Part shown: positions 5,155-11,675 of the stretch, in pieces
Position numbering within the stretch: position 1 is the first letter of the stretch
Layout: every line of letters starts with the position of its first letter
Source: Bizionia argentinensis JUB59
GTDB lineage: Bacteria > Bacteroidota > Bacteroidia > Flavobacteriales > Flavobacteriaceae
Reading direction: 5' to 3'
DNA length: 64,000 nucleotides
Assembly: GCF_000224335.1 (NCBI RefSeq)
Contig: NZ_AFXZ01000012.1
Location: 1 to 64,000, forward strand
Position numbers and translations under genes: made by a program
Notes under the pieces: generated by a model
Seen by the model: only the letters and a program-made list of their open reading frames with translations
What the model was told of the DNA's origin: nothing
The model's database searches: none

Positions 5155-5186
5155 GTTAACTTCTATAAAATTACACCATTAAGTAG
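5155..5186 (+). promoter_or_regulatory. ECF-type promoter element of the lipoprotein-CHAT unit (GTTAACTT-N15-ATTAAGTAG)
   Basis: GTTAACTT at 5155-5162 is followed by 15 bases and ATTAAGTAG at 5178-5186, 23 bases before the ATG at 5210. The same two boxes with the same 15-base spacer precede the sigma factor gene, the beta-barrel gene and the collagen-repeat lipoprotein gene nearby. I infer recognition by the ECF sigma factor encoded at 9377-9952. Confidence 0.6.
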
Positions 5187-5209
5187 CATACTTAAATTTT
5201 AAAAATATT

Positions 5210-5845
5210 ATGAAAAAATACACAATTATTCTTTTAATGATGCCTTTATTATGCTTTACAAACTTAAGTTGTGAAGATAAAGATGACAATGTTATTGTAA
5301 ACGAAGAACCTTTAACTTCCACAAATTATATTTATGAAGGCGATTTAAGAAAATTCTATCTACAGACAGAAATAGCCTATCTTGAAAATCAAATTGAAAT
5401 TTGGAATGCTGTGACTCCTAATGACCCTGATTACCAAAACGCTCAAGAAGAGATATTTCTTGCTATTGCAGAAATTGAGACCAATAAGTTAGAAATTACA
5501 GGAATTGCTAACCCATCCGCTATCTTTGTAATTAAGCCACCGATTCTTCCACCAGTTCCAGTACCATCGCCATGTAATTGTTTAAATGTATACAATACAG
5601 CAAGAAATATTGTACTATTACCAAATACGGAAAACATAAGTATCACCATAATGTCCAATACTGATGAGTCCTTAATTGCTAGCACAAATAGCGATGTTAA
5701 GTTGCAAACTATACCAAACACAGGCAATAAAGGAAAATATCAACCTTTTATACCAGAAAAACCAAACTTTACGGGCGAAGCTTTTATTATAGTAGAAACT
5801 AATAACCATTCTTATACTATTAACTTAAATTTCCACAAACTTTAA
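5210..5845 (+). CDS. small surface-type lipoprotein of unknown function
   Basis: This 211-residue protein has a lipoprotein signal with the acceptor Cys at residue 21 (TNLSC). The residues right after it, EDKDDN, are strongly acidic. Such Lys/Asp/Glu-rich tails after the Cys act as surface-export signals in Bacteroidota, so it may sit on the cell surface. A short Pro-rich linker (PPILPPVPVP) near residue 105 separates a helical N-terminal half from a beta-rich C-terminal half. It lies directly upstream of the CHAT gene behind a shared ECF-type promoter, so it may be a partner or substrate of that system. No family recognised. Confidence 0.6.
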   Translation: MKKYTIILLMMPLLCFTNLSCEDKDDNVIVNEEPLTSTNYIYEGDLRKFYLQTEIAYLENQIEIWNAVTPNDPDYQNAQEEIFLAIAEIETNKLEITGIANPSAIFVIKPPILPPVPVPSPCNCLNVYNTARNIVLLPNTENISITIMSNTDESLIASTNSDVKLQTIPNTGNKGKYQPFIPEKPNFTGEAFIIVETNNHSYTINLNFHKL

Positions 5846-5856
5846 ATAAAAAAGTT

Positions 5857-5884
5857 TTAAACCTCTATTATAAGTGTAAATTAG
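5857..5884 (+). promoter_or_regulatory. possible weak ECF-type promoter ahead of the CHAT gene
   Basis: TTAAACCT at 5857-5864 matches GTTAACCT at six of eight positions and is followed by exactly 15 bases and then ATTAG. This is a degenerate version of the element shared by the four other units of the locus. It could be a second internal promoter for the CHAT gene, or chance. Confidence 0.25.
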
Positions 5885-5910
5885 TCTTTAGCAAAACTGA
5901 AGACTAATTT
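5878..5910 (+). promoter_or_regulatory. 11-bp hairpin directly before the CHAT start codon
   Basis: AAATTAGTCTT (5878-5888) and AAGACTAATTT (5900-5910) are perfect inverted repeats with an 11-base loop. The right arm ends two bases before the CHAT ATG at 5913. It is followed only by a short T run, so it could be a weak terminator for the lipoprotein transcript or a structure that hides the ribosome-loading site of the CHAT gene in readthrough mRNA. Confidence 0.5.
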
Positions 5911-5912
5911 TT

Positions 5913-8672
5913 ATGAAATCATCACTACTATTTTTGCTTGTTTTAGGTGCCTTCCAACTTGCCTTTTCTCAAGCCAATAACGATTCATTATATAGCGTAA
6001 ACGTAACCAGCTTTTACGGAAAAGCCTATCAATACATATATTCCAAACAAGATTCCGCATATTATTATTTCAATAAAATAAATAAAGAAGCTCAAAAACA
6101 TCATGATTTTGAAACTTTTATAAGTAGTACTTGCGCTTCAAACAAAACCGCAGCCTATTTTTACGATCTTGAAAAAATGAAACACAATTTAAGTGAATTA
6201 GATTCTGTGGTTTCAAAACATCATAAAGAATTAAAAGAATCACCACACTACCTATATTATATTAACACTATTGATTTTGACAGAGGCCTCTATTATTTTC
6301 GTTTAAATAACTATTCGCAATCAAGAGAAAATTTTACATCTATAATTACATCTATTGAAAGCTTAAAAGAAAGCGAACTCAATGTTAACCTCATAGATTT
6401 AATTACAAGTGCTTATAGCTTTATTGCTAAAATGTACACCAATGATGGAAAGTTTAATTTAGCAAAAGACTATTATGTTAAAAATATTCAATTTTTAGAA
6501 ACAAAAAAGGCAGACGATATTAGTAAAATAAATAGAACCTATAGTTTATTGGCCGAAGTTTTAAAAAATCAAAACCAAATTGAATCTTCCAATGTGTATT
6601 TTAAAAAATCATTAGCGTATAACCTCAACAACCATGGAGGCTCGAATAATATTATTACTGAAGCAAATCATTTATTGGACAATTATTTAAGTCAATCTAA
6701 AACAGATAGTGCTTTTTATTATCTAGATATTATTAAGACGTATGTTGTCGAAAACGCTACTAAAGCAAACATTTACCACAAAGCAAAGGCAAAAATTCAT
6801 GAAGCCACTAATAATTATAATTTGGCGCTACAAGAGCTTGAAGAAGTATTGGCATTAACACAAGAAAGATGGAAGGATAATCCACATAACGATGTTGCAA
6901 TAGCTTACAAGAAAATAGGTGATTTACATAAAAAATTCAATAATTATGATAAGGCATTAGTTCATTATGATTTAGCCTTAAATTATTTAAAAAATGTAAA
7001 TACCAATGACTTAAAGCAACAAACAGATTTAAAGCTGCTTAAAAACAAATCGGAAGTCTTAAATACTTTTGATTTACATACCCAAAGTTTGAAAATAACG
7101 CATCAAGCTTTAAAAATTCTAGATGATTTAAAACCTTCTTTTAAAAACAACGAGGACAAACTCTTTTTAATGGAAGAGGCTTTTCCTGTTTTTGAATCCG
7201 CTTTGGAAGCAAACTTTAAGTTATTCGCTGAAACCAATCAGGATTCATTAATTGATAGTGCCTTTTATTACTCTGAAAAAAGTAAAAGTGTTCTATTAAT
7301 GGAATCAATTTTAAGCACGCGAGCTACAGAATTCGCGAATATTCCTAAAAAAATCACAGAACAGGAACAGGTTTTAAAATCTAGAATTACACATTTAGAG
7401 AAGGAATTGAATCAATCTAAAAAATCAGAACTAGAATCTGAATTATTTGAAGCTAAAAAAAGCTATAGAGAATTGGTTACCACTATTGAAACCGAATACA
7501 AATCGTATTTCGATTTAAAATATAACGCTAAAGTTATTACATTAAAGGAGGTTCAAGCCTTTTTAAATTCAGACACCGCATTAGTTTCTTATTTTTATGG
7601 TAATAATGCCATCTATAGTATTACTATAACAAAAAATAATAAATCTATTCAACGTATAATACGAAATCAAGAATTGGATGATGCTATTATTTCGGTTTAT
7701 AATATGTTGAGTATACCAAAATCAGATCTGCAAGAACTGAATAAAATGTCAAACGAACTATATCTAAAAGTATTAGCCCCTAGTATTACTAATATTTCGG
7801 AGAAAAATGTGATTATTATAAGTGATGGATTATTAAATTACATTCCGTTTTCTAGTTTATCCATAAATGGATCTTCCCAATATGTTGTGGGAAATTATGC
7901 TATTAGTTATGTAAACTCTGCAACTTTGCTAAAACAGTTGTCAGAAAAAGAATCCATTAACACCAATGTTTTAGCATTTGCACCAAGTTTTAATAGCTTA
8001 AATAATACTAATTTACTGGCATTGCCTCATAATGAAACTGAAGTGGAAGGCATTTTAAATTTTTTTAATGGGGAAACTTTAACGGGTAGTCAAGCATCAC
8101 TTCAAAATTTTAATAGCAAAAGCGCCAATTACGGTATTTTACATTTTGCCACACATGCTATTTTAGATGATATTAATCCCGAATATTCATATTTAGCGTT
8201 TCAACCAAACACCACAGAAAACAACCTATTATATGTAAGTGATTTGTACAACTTAAACCTTAACACGAGTTTGGTAGCGTTAAGTGCTTGCGAAAGTGGC
8301 ATTGGAAACTTAAATCGTGGTGAAGGTTTTACAAGTTTAGCCCGCGGATTTTATTTTAGTGGCGCCTCCAGTATTGCCAGCACATTATGGAAAATTAATG
8401 ATGCATCGTCCTTAAATATCATGAATAATTTTTATAAAAATCTATCTGAAGGAGACGATAAAAGCACCGCTTTAAACAAAGCACAAATGTCTTTTTTAAA
8501 CGGCAACAGCCAAAATGCTTTGGCTCATCCATATTATTGGTCTGGTTTTGTTATATCTGGAAACACAAGTGCCATTGTAAAATCTAATAACACATGGGTT
8601 TGGTTTACACTGGCTGGTATTGGAGTTCTAGCTATAGGTTTTCTTCTAATTAAACGCCGAAAATCTAATTAA
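5913..8672 (+). CDS. TPR-CHAT protease, secreted and anchored by a C-terminal membrane helix
   Basis: CHAT domains are caspase-like cysteine proteases. This 919-residue protein has a signal peptide (residues 1-20, ending AFSQ), TPR-like helical repeats at about 120-450, a charged coiled-coil-like stretch at about 480-530 and a CHAT domain at about 590-880. The likely catalytic pair is His748 (HFATHA) and Cys793 (LSACESG), 45 residues apart as expected for this fold. A membrane helix at 895-913 is followed by KRRKSN, which places the protease domain in the periplasm. It is convergent with the TPR/anti-sigma gene, and the two reading frames overlap by 8 bases at their ends. Family call is sure; substrate is unknown, with the neighbouring TPR protein or lipoproteins as candidates. 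Confidence 0.85.
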   Translation: MKSSLLFLLVLGAFQLAFSQANNDSLYSVNVTSFYGKAYQYIYSKQDSAYYYFNKINKEAQKHHDFETFISSTCASNKTAAYFYDLEKMKHNLSELDSVVSKHHKELKESPHYLYYINTIDFDRGLYYFRLNNYSQSRENFTSIITSIESLKESELNVNLIDLITSAYSFIAKMYTNDGKFNLAKDYYVKNIQFLETKKADDISKINRTYSLLAEVLKNQNQIESSNVYFKKSLAYNLNNHGGSNNIITEANHLLDNYLSQSKTDSAFYYLDIIKTYVVENATKANIYHKAKAKIHEATNNYNLALQELEEVLALTQERWKDNPHNDVAIAYKKIGDLHKKFNNYDKALVHYDLALNYLKNVNTNDLKQQTDLKLLKNKSEVLNTFDLHTQSLKITHQALKILDDLKPSFKNNEDKLFLMEEAFPVFESALEANFKLFAETNQDSLIDSAFYYSEKSKSVLLMESILSTRATEFANIPKKITEQEQVLKSRITHLEKELNQSKKSELESELFEAKKSYRELVTTIETEYKSYFDLKYNAKVITLKEVQAFLNSDTALVSYFYGNNAIYSITITKNNKSIQRIIRNQELDDAIISVYNMLSIPKSDLQELNKMSNELYLKVLAPSITNISEKNVIIISDGLLNYIPFSSLSINGSSQYVVGNYAISYVNSATLLKQLSEKESINTNVLAFAPSFNSLNNTNLLALPHNETEVEGILNFFNGETLTGSQASLQNFNSKSANYGILHFATHAILDDINPEYSYLAFQPNTTENNLLYVSDLYNLNLNTSLVALSACESGIGNLNRGEGFTSLARGFYFSGASSIASTLWKINDASSLNIMNNFYKNLSEGDDKSTALNKAQMSFLNGNSQNALAHPYYWSGFVISGNTSAIVKSNNTWVWFTLAGIGVLAIGFLLIKRRKSN

Positions 8673-9384
8673 GCTTCTCTAGTAATTCTTTTGCTTTATC
8701 CTTGTTGTAAAAATGATTACTTATCAATTTCTCAAGATAAGTTATTGCCTGATCCTTATCTTTGGACTTGATAGCAATCAGCGCTAAATACCATGTGGAC
8801 TCTCCCTGAAACTCATTATTTTCATCTAAAACTTGTTGAAATAAGCGTCTAGCATTTCCAAAATCTTCCAGACCTAAATAAGCTTGTGCTTTATAAAATG
8901 ACATATATGATTTCTGACTAGTTTCTGGTATAGCATCAAACTTATCAATAGCTATTTGGTAGTTTCTTGTTTCGTAAGCAATAAAAGCTTCGCGTTCTAT
9001 GGTATTAGAATCATCGCTTCTTGTAATAGTATAAACCGTATTTGGATATTCAGTAAAATTACTAGCATATAAATTAGAGTAATTTGTTCCGAAAATTGAA
9101 TTGTAACCAAACCAACCTATTAATAAAGCTAAAGTAGCGGCAACAGCCAGATATTTGTAATTGAAAATAAATAGTTTTTTCGCATTTAAATTGCGCTCGA
9201 AACCTTTAAGTTTTGATTTCATTACATCCGACTCATGACTTTTTATAGCCTTTTTTAAATTATTTTCGTATTCAAATTCCGCTTTAAATTCTGCATCTGT
9301 TTCCAATAGTTTTCGAAAAACAACTTCCTGTTCAGCTGTTAAGCTGTTAGAAAAGTAGTGGTATAATAAATCTTGATTAGTCAT
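8665..9384 (-). CDS. membrane TPR protein, probable anti-sigma factor
   Basis: The protein has 239 residues. The first 70 or so are charged and helical with no zinc motif, then comes one membrane helix at about 76-96. A C-terminal region (about 125-235) has TPR-like text such as AFIAYETRNYQIAIDKFD and KAQAYLGLEDFGNARRLF. The layout of a cytoplasmic N-terminus, one membrane pass and a periplasmic sensing domain is typical of anti-sigma factors. The start codon lies inside the last codons of the sigma gene (8-base overlap), which implies translational coupling. Anti-sigma activity is inferred from position and topology, since no canonical anti-sigma motif is visible. Confidence 0.65.
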   Translation of the reverse strand: MTNQDLLYHYFSNSLTAEQEVVFRKLLETDAEFKAEFEYENNLKKAIKSHESDVMKSKLKGFERNLNAKKLFIFNYKYLAVAATLALLIGWFGYNSIFGTNYSNLYASNFTEYPNTVYTITRSDDSNTIEREAFIAYETRNYQIAIDKFDAIPETSQKSYMSFYKAQAYLGLEDFGNARRLFQQVLDENNEFQGESTWYLALIAIKSKDKDQAITYLEKLISNHFYNKDKAKELLEKLN

Positions 9385-9952
9385 TGCTATTGCTATTAAT
9401 ACGTTCTTTAAGGGTTTTCATGCATCGTGATTTTGCGCTTTTAACAACGTTTTCACTCGTATAGTCGCTTGCCAAAATAATATCCTTTATGGTATAACCA
9501 CGGTAATAAAATAAAGTTAGTAATTCCTGACATTTTTTTCCAAGTGTGGAAAAGTGTTTTTTTAATAAGACTTGCTCTGTCGTTAATTCGTCTTGATCCA
9601 AATCGAATGACGCATCAACCAAGGTGTCGCGTTCTCTAATAAGCGACAAATCGAAATCGGGATTTATAGTCTTATTATTTTTTTTCATTTTATCAAAAAT
9701 TAAATACTTTCCAATGCTAAATAAATAGGTTGAAATAGAACTTGTGAAGACTTCCACTTTACCTTGCATTACGTTATTATAGAAAATAATATAGGCATCT
9801 TGATACACATCGATTGTATCATCTTCCGATAAACGATACTTTCTAGCAAAATTTATAAACTTATCTCGATTGTCTTCATAAATACGTTTGAACAACAAAT
9901 CGGAGCCCTCTTTTAAATCTTCAACAGTTATATTCTCTTGAACGCTTTCCAT
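9377..9952 (-). CDS. ECF-type RNA polymerase sigma factor
   Basis: The 191-residue length fits an ECF sigma factor. Region 2 is visible at about residues 20-75 with the DVYQDAYIIFYNNV helix. Region 4 is at about 136-182, with LGKKCQELLTLFYYRGYTI followed by a helix-turn-helix ending in SENVVKSAKSRCMKTL. It overlaps the downstream membrane TPR gene by 8 bases, the classic sigma/anti-sigma arrangement. An element GTTAACCT-N15-ATTAAATGG overlaps its own ATG, so autoregulation is likely. However, a transcript from there would lack this ATG; a TTG at codon 19 or 20 is the only obvious alternative in the region, unless another upstream promoter is used. Confidence 0.85.
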   Translation of the reverse strand: MESVQENITVEDLKEGSDLLFKRIYEDNRDKFINFARKYRLSEDDTIDVYQDAYIIFYNNVMQGKVEVFTSSISTYLFSIGKYLIFDKMKKNNKTINPDFDLSLIRERDTLVDASFDLDQDELTTEQVLLKKHFSTLGKKCQELLTLFYYRGYTIKDIILASDYTSENVVKSAKSRCMKTLKERINSNSND

Positions 9953-9980
9953 TTAATATCCTAAAATTAAAAAGGTTAAC
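9949..9980 (-). promoter_or_regulatory. ECF-type promoter element overlapping the sigma gene start (GTTAACCT-N15-ATTAAATGG)
   Basis: Read on the minus strand, GTTAACCT (9980-9973), 15 bases, then ATTAAATGG (9957-9949). The second box contains the ATG of the sigma gene. It is identical in both boxes and spacing to the element ahead of the divergent beta-barrel gene. It may drive autoregulation with a downstream start, or interfere with expression from another promoter. Confidence 0.55.
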
Positions 9981-10068
9981 ACACTTCTGCTAAAATAACT
10001 TATTTTAAGAAAAGACCCCCTACGATTTTTACAATTCTATATCTCTTTAAGATAAAAACAACTTTCAT

Positions 10069-10100
10069 GTTAACCTAATTGAACAAACACCATTAAATGG
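10069..10100 (+). promoter_or_regulatory. ECF-type promoter element of the beta-barrel gene (GTTAACCT-N15-ATTAAATGG)
   Basis: GTTAACCT at 10069-10076, 15 bases, then ATTAAATGG at 10092-10100. Both boxes are identical to those of the divergent sigma gene. An in-frame ATG at 10097 lies inside the second box, which argues that the real start of the beta-barrel gene is the ATG at 10124. Confidence 0.6.
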
Positions 10101-10123
10101 TCAAACAAAAACATCTTATAATA

Positions 10124-10657
10124 ATGAAAAACATGAATCAAATCAACCAAAACTCCTTTAGAAATTGCGCTTTTATTATAGCAAGTGCTTTACTATTCTT
10201 TATGAGTGCGAATATGCAAGCACAAATAGCCATTGGTGGTGGTTTGGGCTACAATGAAAAAGTTTCTGGTGCGGGTGTTACCGCCAAAGCTCAATTTAAT
10301 ATTACAAACGAGATTGCTATTTCACCAGGCTTTACCTATTTTTTCGGTACTGCGGTTTACGGTTTTAATCAAAATATGATAGCTGTTGATGTTAATGGCC
10401 ATTACTTCTTTGATATTATGGACGATAAACTTAAAATCTATCCATTAGTAGGCCTTAACTTTTCTAGTTACAAAACAGGATACTCTAACTATTACTTCCA
10501 AACAAGCGAAGTTAGCAATAGCACTTTTGGTGCAAATATAGGAGCTGGTGCACAATATAAGTTTACAGAGAAATTAAGTGTGTATTTAGAGCCTAAATAT
10601 GTAGCTAGTGAATTTGGGCAAGTTATAGTAAATGCAGGAATACTCTATCAGCTATAA
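10124..10657 (+). CDS. small outer-membrane beta-barrel protein
   Basis: About 177 residues from ATG 10124. An upstream ATG at 10097 is rejected because it lies within a promoter-like box. The N-terminus has a signal peptide ending near MQAQ. The mature part is built of alternating strands (IAIGGGLGYNEK, ISPGFTYFFG, VYLEPKYVAS, VNAGILYQL) with an aromatic-rich C-terminus, as in eight-stranded OmpW/OmpX-like barrels. It is divergent from the sigma factor gene and probably under its control. Such barrels are frequent targets of envelope-stress sigma factors. Exact role unknown. Confidence 0.7.
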   Translation: MKNMNQINQNSFRNCAFIIASALLFFMSANMQAQIAIGGGLGYNEKVSGAGVTAKAQFNITNEIAISPGFTYFFGTAVYGFNQNMIAVDVNGHYFFDIMDDKLKIYPLVGLNFSSYKTGYSNYYFQTSEVSNSTFGANIGAGAQYKFTEKLSVYLEPKYVASEFGQVIVNAGILYQL

Positions 10658-10698
10658 GCCTCTCCTTATGTTATATTATTTGAATTAGTCTTCAACTT

Positions 10699-10728
10699 AA
10701 AAAGCCGGAAAGTAGTTTTCTGGCTTTT
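10699..10728 (+). terminator. intrinsic terminator after the beta-barrel gene
   Basis: AAAAGCC ... GGCTTTT arms enclose a further GAAA/TTTC pairing (stem with one mismatch), 42 bases after the stop codon, with a T-rich 3' arm. Confidence 0.7.
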
Positions 10729-10810
10729 GTCATGAATTTAGTGAAAACTGATTTTAATATCGTTTTAAAAATAATTAAACTTTAGTAAGTAGAATATCTA
10801 AATAACTTAA

Positions 10811-10838
10811 ACCGAGCTAAACACTTCGGTCTTTTTTA
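10811..10838 (+). terminator. second terminator, near copy of the one at 11647
   Basis: ACCGA-GCTAAACAC-TTCGGT followed by CTTTTTT. It is the same sequence as the terminator at 11647-11675 apart from one missing A. No gene is visible between the preceding terminator and this one. Confidence 0.6.
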
Positions 10839-10847
10839 TGTTTTATT

Positions 10848-10879
10848 GTTAACTTTTTTAAAAATCAAGCATTAAACGT
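10848..10879 (+). promoter_or_regulatory. ECF-type promoter element of the collagen-repeat lipoprotein (GTTAACTT-N15-ATTAAACGT)
   Basis: GTTAACTT at 10848-10855, 15 bases, then ATTAAACGT at 10871-10879, 30 bases before the ATG at 10910. It is the fourth instance of the boxes and spacer shared by this locus. Confidence 0.6.
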
Positions 10880-10909: not shown

Positions 10910-11515
10910 ATGAAAACACAAACAATTCAAACAGTTATCTCAAAAACAAAATTTGTGCTACTCGCATTTCTAATAGCTTTTAGTTTTGCATGTTCACCAG
11001 AAGATGGTAATGATGGTAATGATGGTGCAATGGGCGAACAAGGACCGCAAGGTGAACAAGGCCCTCAAGGAGATCAAGGAAATCAAGGACAAGATGCCTT
11101 TATTAATATTACATCAATTACCCCACCAGGCTGTCAAAGAGTTGCGAACGCCAATTCTGGTTACCAAAAAATTACAGATTTAGGAGATTTCACAAAATTA
11201 GAAAATTCTAGCTTTGTAGAAATTGATTACCAAACTAATTTTAGTGTAACATTTGGCACAGGGACGACCGCTGTTGTGTATCAACTTCGCGTAGATGATA
11301 ATGCTACAACTTTAGGAAAGGCTACTTTAATATTAAAAACAACCAACACCAGTTTACCGGCGGTTATACATGGTGTTTTCCCTGGTTTAACTGAAGGCGA
11401 TCATACCATAAGCGTATGGGTAAAATCTGTTAACGGAACTGCAACAAATGCTTACATTGACTCTGGTTGTTATAATTCTCATAATAATAATATTATTGTA
11501 AAAGAGTTTATGTAA
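10910..11515 (+). CDS. lipoprotein with collagen-like Gly-X-Y repeats
   Basis: The protein has 201 residues. The lipidated Cys is at residue 28 (FSFAC), followed by the acidic SPEDGNDG, which fits a surface-export signal. Residues 33-62 are ten Gly-X-Y triplets rich in Gln, Pro and Asp, likely to form a short triple-helical stalk. The C-terminal 140 residues are beta-rich and could be a trimeric head domain, in the manner of bacterial collagen-like proteins. It has its own ECF-type promoter and lies between two near-identical terminators. Function unknown; a surface fibre or a sensor feeding the neighbouring sigma system are both possible. Confidence 0.7.
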   Translation: MKTQTIQTVISKTKFVLLAFLIAFSFACSPEDGNDGNDGAMGEQGPQGEQGPQGDQGNQGQDAFINITSITPPGCQRVANANSGYQKITDLGDFTKLENSSFVEIDYQTNFSVTFGTGTTAVVYQLRVDDNATTLGKATLILKTTNTSLPAVIHGVFPGLTEGDHTISVWVKSVNGTATNAYIDSGCYNSHNNNIIVKEFM

Positions 11516-11646
11516 ATGAATAACTAGCCAATTTGAATACGCTATTATATAGCAATAATTTATTAAGAATTAAAAAACTGTTATATAAATACGTTATGTA
11601 TCAATTTGGTTTAGACTCGTAATCTTACTAAAAAAATCCTGAAGGA

Positions 11647-11675
11647 ACCGAAGCTAAACACTTCGGTTTTTTTTT
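11647..11675 (+). terminator. intrinsic terminator after the collagen-repeat lipoprotein
   Basis: ACCGAAG (11647-11653), loop CTAAACA, CTTCGGT (11661-11667), then a run of nine T. A strong intrinsic terminator, 132 bases after the stop codon. Confidence 0.85.

Follow-up and report, generated by a model that had tools for sequence, protein, structure and literature searches.

The locus described here lies within a 64,000-nt stretch of Bizionia argentinensis DNA (the window) and is built around a gene for an ECF sigma factor. Its features, in coordinates of the window, are the following.

5155-5182, plus strand: GTTAACTT-N15-ATTAA, predicted ECF-type promoter for the lipoprotein-CHAT unit; transcription expected from ~5187, leader ~23 nt
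5210-5845, plus strand: P0004, a lipoprotein-like protein encoded by the leading gene of the CHAT unit
5913-8672, plus strand: TPR-CHAT protein P0003 of the caspase/separase-like type; its N-terminus is signal-like, its C-terminus bears a hydrophobic helix, and it has a His748/Cys793 pair
8665-9384, minus strand: putative transmembrane anti-sigma factor P0002 with a C-terminal TPR domain; its gene shares 8 bases with the 3′ end of the sigma gene
9377-9952, minus strand: ECF sigma factor P0001; its start codon (9952-9950) abuts the -10 box
9953-9980, minus strand: predicted sigma-type promoter P2, GTTAACCT-N15-ATTAA; its last base directly precedes the sigma ATG, predicted start ~9948, inside codon 2
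9990-9997, minus strand: candidate promoter P1, TATTTTAG, which nearly matches the TAnnTTTG -7 box of housekeeping promoters; sigma mRNA made from it would be intact, with ~33 nt of leader
10069-10096, plus strand: GTTAACCT-N15-ATTAA, predicted ECF-type promoter for the beta-barrel gene; transcription expected from ~10101
10124-10657, plus strand: outer-membrane beta-barrel protein P0005, read from its second Met; leader ~23 nt
10811-10830, plus strand: terminator-like hairpin before the collagen unit, from a scan that as a whole was no richer than shuffles (3 vs. a mean of 3.2)
10848-10875, plus strand: GTTAACTT-N15-ATTAA, predicted ECF-type promoter for the collagen-repeat lipoprotein gene; transcription expected from ~10880, leader ~30 nt
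10910-11515, plus strand: collagen-repeat lipoprotein-like protein P0006

P0001 scored 48.0 bits against the ECF family model TIGR02937, above the cut-off of 42.9, and 23.8 bits against Pfam Sigma70_r2, just under the cut-off of 24; the Pfam search gave no match in region 4. Its scores fall below the curated cut-offs of the Bacteroides sigma subfamily TIGR02985 (41.7 vs. 126.4 bits) and of the GFO_1088 family ECF sigma factors (NF058625; 34.3 vs. 130 bits), and a sequence search of solved structures produced no match within the limits set. In all 89 tabulated loci, the gene directly after sigma is related to the anti-sigma gene. In its predicted model, P0002 has the layout of a membrane anti-sigma factor encoded after its sigma factor, with a helical N-terminus (helices at residues 3-67), one membrane-like hydrophobic helix (76-98) and a TPR region (129-238); the pLDDT is 76.9 overall and below 50 at residues 54-64, 66-85, and 90-97. 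The best 50 matches of a fold search were TPR or other helical proteins, a profile search against solved structures found TPR proteins, and the LIMLP_03685 anti-sigma model matched P0002 below its cut-off (20.5 vs. 200 bits).

The CHAT domain PF12770 was found in P0003 at 188.9 bits (cut-off 24), as in a CHAT protease, and the His and Cys are kept in 86 of 87 aligned CHAT proteins, the remaining one being gapped there. A CHAT gene occurs in 87 of the 89 tabulated loci and is usually convergent (not, for example, in L028, L029, and L050); in the window it converges on the anti-sigma gene and is preceded by the lipoprotein-like gene. In L019, L020, L026, L028, L036, and L038, of the Maribacter, Zobellia, and Aurantibacter lineages, the CHAT proteins are 23-25% identical to that of the window and carry SACNTS around the Cys, while identity between the sigma factors is 61-66%; an exchange of the protease may have occurred there. 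As for the remaining genes, the listed beta-barrel ORF opens at an ATG abutting the motif, and relatives point to the in-frame ATG at 10124. A second terminator-like hairpin, of 13 pairs and then a T-run, follows the collagen lipoprotein gene at 11641-11673.

The preliminary description of this DNA had proposed that four transcription units share GTTAACYT and ATTAA boxes exactly 15 bases apart, and this was borne out by an exact search of the window, which gave four matches (5155 plus, 9953-9980 minus, 10069 plus, and 10848 plus). None of 100 shuffles of the window contained four (mean 0.01). Across the 3.28-Mb genome we found five exact copies, against one for the reversed pattern; four of the five fall within 5.7 kb at the locus and the fifth sits inside a 767-codon open frame. 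In window and genome alike, the motif is far more frequent than chance would give. GTTAACYT by itself is unremarkable, with 12 copies in the window vs. 8.1 expected. The same description held that other GTTAACYT strings lack ATTAA at this spacing, which is correct, but its list of such strings was incomplete (7 named, 12 present); the five unnamed ones (38161 minus, 38163 plus, 42301 plus, 49209 minus, and 60262 minus) also lack it. When a slightly longer pattern was searched genome-wide with two mismatches allowed, 125 matches were obtained vs. 137 for its reverse; since there is no excess, only the exact sites stand out. Ten imperfect or additional matches were inspected as an extended regulon in the B. 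argentinensis genome, and none was convincing: six fall within open frames of 176-767 codons, two are followed by no ORF start, and for two the ORF starts are 102 and 193 nt away. Four sites were therefore counted, and a four-unit regulon in this genome is well supported at the sequence level. The suggestion that ECF-type promoters at the four units serve mostly envelope targets is likewise supported by the gene content and by conserved sites near lipoprotein and barrel genes.

These conserved sites were seen in 45 loci with relatives of the sigma factor, the closest in Bizionia and Xanthomarina and others in Lacinutrix, Maribacter, Zobellia, and further genera. GTTAAC is followed by ATTAA 143 times at N15 and 25 times at N16 in these loci, and at most seven times at any other spacing from 8 to 25. 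The -35 box is present at the sigma gene in 43 of the 45 (L049 and L050 lack it), and the strict consensus in 39 plus the window. Chance similarity of AT-rich intergenic sequence could be entertained because the genome is AT-rich and relaxed patterns are common, but it is hardly conceivable in view of the shuffles, the crowding of the genomic copies into 5.7 kb and this recurrence among relatives. The strict rule gave 126 non-sigma sites across the window and 41 of the 45 loci, and among the matches listed these mostly precede lipoprotein-like, collagen-repeat and barrel genes. The motif also tracks the sigma factor across genomes. By manual count of 249 family genomes, 63 sites of GTTAACCT-N15-ATTAA occur in the 18 whose sigma match reaches E<=1e-50 and 48 in the other 231, making the motif ~17 times denser where a close relative of the sigma factor is present, although two of the 18 (G055 and G235) have no exact site. 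The proposed tie between promoter and sigma factor thus holds, both by conservation at the sigma and neighboring genes and by distribution.

The sequence GTTAAC is palindromic, as might be expected of a binding site for some other regulator, whether repressor or activator. We regard this as very improbable, given two boxes at a fixed N15, a distribution that follows this sigma factor, a gene start 14-113 nt downstream of 119 of the 126 non-sigma sites, and the absence of the motif at ten other ECF genes of the genus, all of which score below zero with the matrix described below. Moreover, AAC in the -35 box is general among ECF promoters. Accordingly, the motif is real and very probably a promoter of this sigma family, and its best reading is as the -35/-10 promoter at which the sigma factor encoded at 9377-9952 would initiate transcription. 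The promoter had also been called private; this stands within its own genome, but distant homologues of the sigma family use a near-identical GTTWAC element.

Several further features of the sites in relatives were observed. Among 20 hand-picked distal sites in other sigma-carrying genomes, many precede genes with signal-like beginnings, three of them collagen-like (L154, L166, and L167); at others the gene starts lie farther off or the site looks chance-like, and L160 lacks any start. Five to seven strict target sites were counted in individual loci (L012, L016, L044, L047, and L048, with minus-strand sites); several of them precede genes for collagen-repeat lipoprotein-like proteins, which would fit an array of targets expanding by duplication. 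A T-rich tract 10-16 nt upstream of the -35 box reaches 1.08 bits per column over 124 target sites (window and L006-L048) and resembles an UP element. Inspection by eye of the sigma gene and divergent upstream region in L069-L107 showed distant members with GTTTAC or GTTGAC in place of GTTAAC; the variant sometimes differs between the sigma and the divergent site, a possible paralogue specificity code.

The position of the site at the sigma gene itself is unlike that at its targets. In the 44 cases with the box (the window and 43 loci), the sigma start was found against the -10 box: 32 start with ATG, preceded directly by an in-frame TAA in 31 (the exception is L045), and 12 with GTG, one base further along with the frame kept. 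The start codon therefore looks real. Misannotation, with the true start downstream, was considered and is unlikely on the same grounds; no conserved internal start codon was found in the sigma genes, although up to 38 of 67, the window's included, have an ATG, GTG, or TTG at positions 19-24 that might serve as a weak internal start. Additionally, 90 sigma genes were scored with a matrix built solely from non-sigma sites at a threshold of 9 bits. The sigma start lies at -1 to +1 of such a site in 67 of the 90, vs. 3 of 702 controls (frames running from stop to stop in the same loci, 250 residues or longer, rather than annotated genes). Offsets among the 67 are 0 in 35, +1 in 16, and -1 in 16, with 55 ATG and 12 GTG starts, and clustering at 85% identity leaves an abutting start in 42 of 64 clusters, clustering at 60% in 16 of 26. 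A class-wide search of 295 genomes, seven of which had matches, added nine homologues; six, which extend the arrangement to three additional families, pass the 9-bit threshold with an offset of -1 or 0, and the scores of the remaining three are 8.5, 2.8, and 1.8 bits. At non-sigma sites, by comparison, the median distance to the gene start is 30 nt and 100 of 119 fall within 20-42 nt, the 7 of 126 sites without an ORF start within 130 nt being excluded from the median. The first search for these starts ran from +12 and was blind to nearer ones; repeated from -3, it gave additional near starts at 5 of the 126, two of them at -1 to +1. The independent evidence on start position consists of the 44-case inspection and the 90-gene scoring.

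The consequences of this placement depend on where transcription begins. For Flavobacterium psychrophilum, one study reports that the sigma-A box spans -12 to -5, that leaders have a median length of 24 nt, and that 5.5% of the examined mRNAs are leaderless (PMC9723704). We set the last A of ATTAA at -5, an assumed geometry taken from the primary sigma factor of another flavobacterium. This predicts 23, 23, and 30 nt for the leaders of the three window targets and ~26 nt from the relatives' 30-nt median, whereas the same rule places the start of P2 at ~9948, in codon 2. Exclusion of the AUG with both boxes outside the coding sequence requires a start codon at roughly -1 to +4, and -1 to +1 is observed; a leaderless sigma mRNA would require about +5. 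With this borrowed geometry, P2 RNA should lack the sigma AUG because the -10 box abuts the start codon. The preliminary description had called the sigma factor autoregulated, and there is indeed a site at its own gene, but plain autoregulation is unsupported when the predicted transcript lacks the AUG. Autoregulation here is probably not simple positive feedback, and negative feedback is the more likely reading in view of a site that lies against the sigma start codon.

Classical positive autoregulation would instead have P2 RNA make sigma factor, either leaderless at the AUG or via an internal start codon. Many ECF sigma factors are described as autoregulating in PMC10028731, the leaderless mRNAs of Flavobacterium offer a precedent (PMC9723704), some sigma genes have TTG or GTG near codons 19-24, and the box-to-start adjacency is as tight as a fixed transcription start would demand. 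Yet the RNA would have to start 0-1 nt past the -10 box where leaderless geometry predicts ~5 nt, targets of the same element have their gene starts at a median of 30 nt, an internal start codon is conserved in no way, and 12 of 67 sigma genes start with GTG. We therefore judge this explanation unlikely, if still a serious contender.

If P2 cannot make sigma factor, an additional promoter would be needed. The earlier statement that no TAnnTTTG box precedes these genes must be amended for the sigma gene, which has the near match TATTTTAG on its upstream side. Similar boxes are found again 5′ of the sigma gene in relatives, several of which have the full TAnnTTTG (e.g., L037, L045, L103, and L107), and a TTWGC, TTTAGT, or TTTGT box plus an A-tract 5′ of the -35 box accompanies 34 of 67 sigma sites vs. 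1 of 124 target sites. That the P1 box of this genome is a near match only counts against the brake model, as do the 23 of 90 homologues that fail the 9-bit test; several failing clades (e.g., L084, L087, and L096) carry GTTAACA at other distances, some further upstream, and these sites may be productive.

The element lies directly between candidate P1 and the sigma start codon, as it would if it were a road-block, that is, a pure autorepressor site at which bound holoenzyme stops polymerase coming from P1. In favor of this, untranslated P2 RNA may fail to reach the anti-sigma gene. The anti-sigma start lies at -14 to +10 nt from the sigma stop in the 78 of 89 loci where the rule picked a start, and the arrangement suggests translational coupling that would be lost in untranslated P2 RNA, a point against the brake. 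Rho might also end such RNA early. On the other hand, in a comparison whose sigma rows were preselected for a start at -1 to +1, the boxes at the sigma gene match those of the target promoters in quality and the next letters are similar; because its boxes equal theirs, the element should also fire. A purely blocking role is therefore improbable, and it is more likely that P2 acts as a brake either by making RNA good only for anti-sigma or by blocking the upstream promoter.

Taken together, we consider it fairly probable that the sigma factor is restrained through its own promoter while envelope and CHAT targets are switched on and P1 supplies its mRNA, a circuit in which transcription and protein function are deduced. 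Sigma factor would be held by the membrane-spanning TPR anti-sigma factor encoded downstream and, once released, would switch on envelope proteins and the TPR-CHAT unit via ordinary leaders of ~23-30 nt. P2 RNA would begin in codon 2, without the sigma AUG, and the working sigma mRNA would come from the housekeeping-type P1 near 9990-9997. P2 would then yield RNA for anti-sigma only, interfere with P1, or both, and each would damp the response. The usual ECF circuit is pictured as self-amplifying; the opposite sign is predicted by a promoter that stays next to the start codon even in sigma factors as distant as 32-34% identity. In 34 of 45 cases (window and 44 loci; intervening genes disregarded), the 4.5 kb 5′ of the CHAT gene contain a strict site on its strand. 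The CHAT protease, behind such a site in most relatives, would be a candidate cutter of the anti-sigma factor and so an opposing positive arm, though cleavage of the TPR anti-sigma factor is a hypothesis only. Put more generally, and more tentatively, several families might share a self-limiting ECF circuit in which sigma-driven RNA yields only anti-sigma while a separase/Csx29-like CHAT protease of the same regulon, located on the opposite side of the membrane, cuts the anti-sigma factor; we hold this to be possible but rather doubtful. As a promoter signature, the element could help to locate the regulons of ECF sigma factors linked to CHAT genes, and it points to candidate substrates of a bacterial, non-CRISPR protease of the caspase/separase-like kind.

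Classical ECF operons with an autopromoter include those of E. coli RpoE and B. subtilis SigW, and the present locus resembles them in its two genes, AAC-type -35 box, extracytoplasmic targets and site upstream of sigma. Classical autopromoters precede a leader that contains the start codon, whereas here the -10 box abuts the sigma start codon. ECF-type promoters, including that of one ECF/anti-sigma operon, are reported from the same bacterial family as motif SM6 of F. psychrophilum, which has a CGT box in the -10 region rather than the ATTAA found here (PMC9723704). A PADLOC search matched none of six locus proteins at E<=0.01, a sequence search of solved structures with the CHAT protein gave nothing at the limits used, and in the open-access literature we found neither an ECF/TPR anti-sigma/CHAT module outside Craspase nor this motif, which is no proof of absence.

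Structural comparison was more informative. The predicted model of P0003 (pLDDT 88.3) matched Csx29 best among solved structures, followed by DdvA and separase. Against Csx29, Foldseek gave an E-value of 1.7e-13 to 8eey_B (TM 0.34 by query length) and VIA a Z-score of 28.0 over 544 aligned residues to 7y9x_B (rmsd 9.8), so that the modeled protein has a TPR-CHAT fold like that of Csx29. Against DdvA, which the PDB titles of 8rot and 8rw5 name as a transmembrane anti-sigma factor, the values were E 2.0e-12 with Foldseek and Z 22.5 with VIA (572 aligned, rmsd 15.0); as far as those titles go, a fold of this kind is therefore already known in an anti-sigma setting. In DdvA the matching part lies within the anti-sigma factor itself, whereas here anti-sigma and CHAT proteins are encoded by separate genes. 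Csx29, together with Cas7-11, cleaves Csx30, an inhibitor of an ECF sigma factor, according to the Craspase study (PMC10028731). That type III-E CRISPR signaling arm (Csx29, Csx30, and CASP-sigma), as described there, joins a TPR-CHAT protease, an ECF inhibitor and an ECF sigma factor in one locus (PMC10028731), as would be the case here. Unlike Craspase, the present locus encodes a CHAT protein whose N-terminus is signal-like and which carries a hydrophobic helix at its C-terminus; the putative sigma inhibitor, with a membrane-like helix, has 239 residues, compared with 565 for Csx30. If the proposed circuit is true, the Craspase signaling arm would have an envelope-stress counterpart in Bacteroidota.
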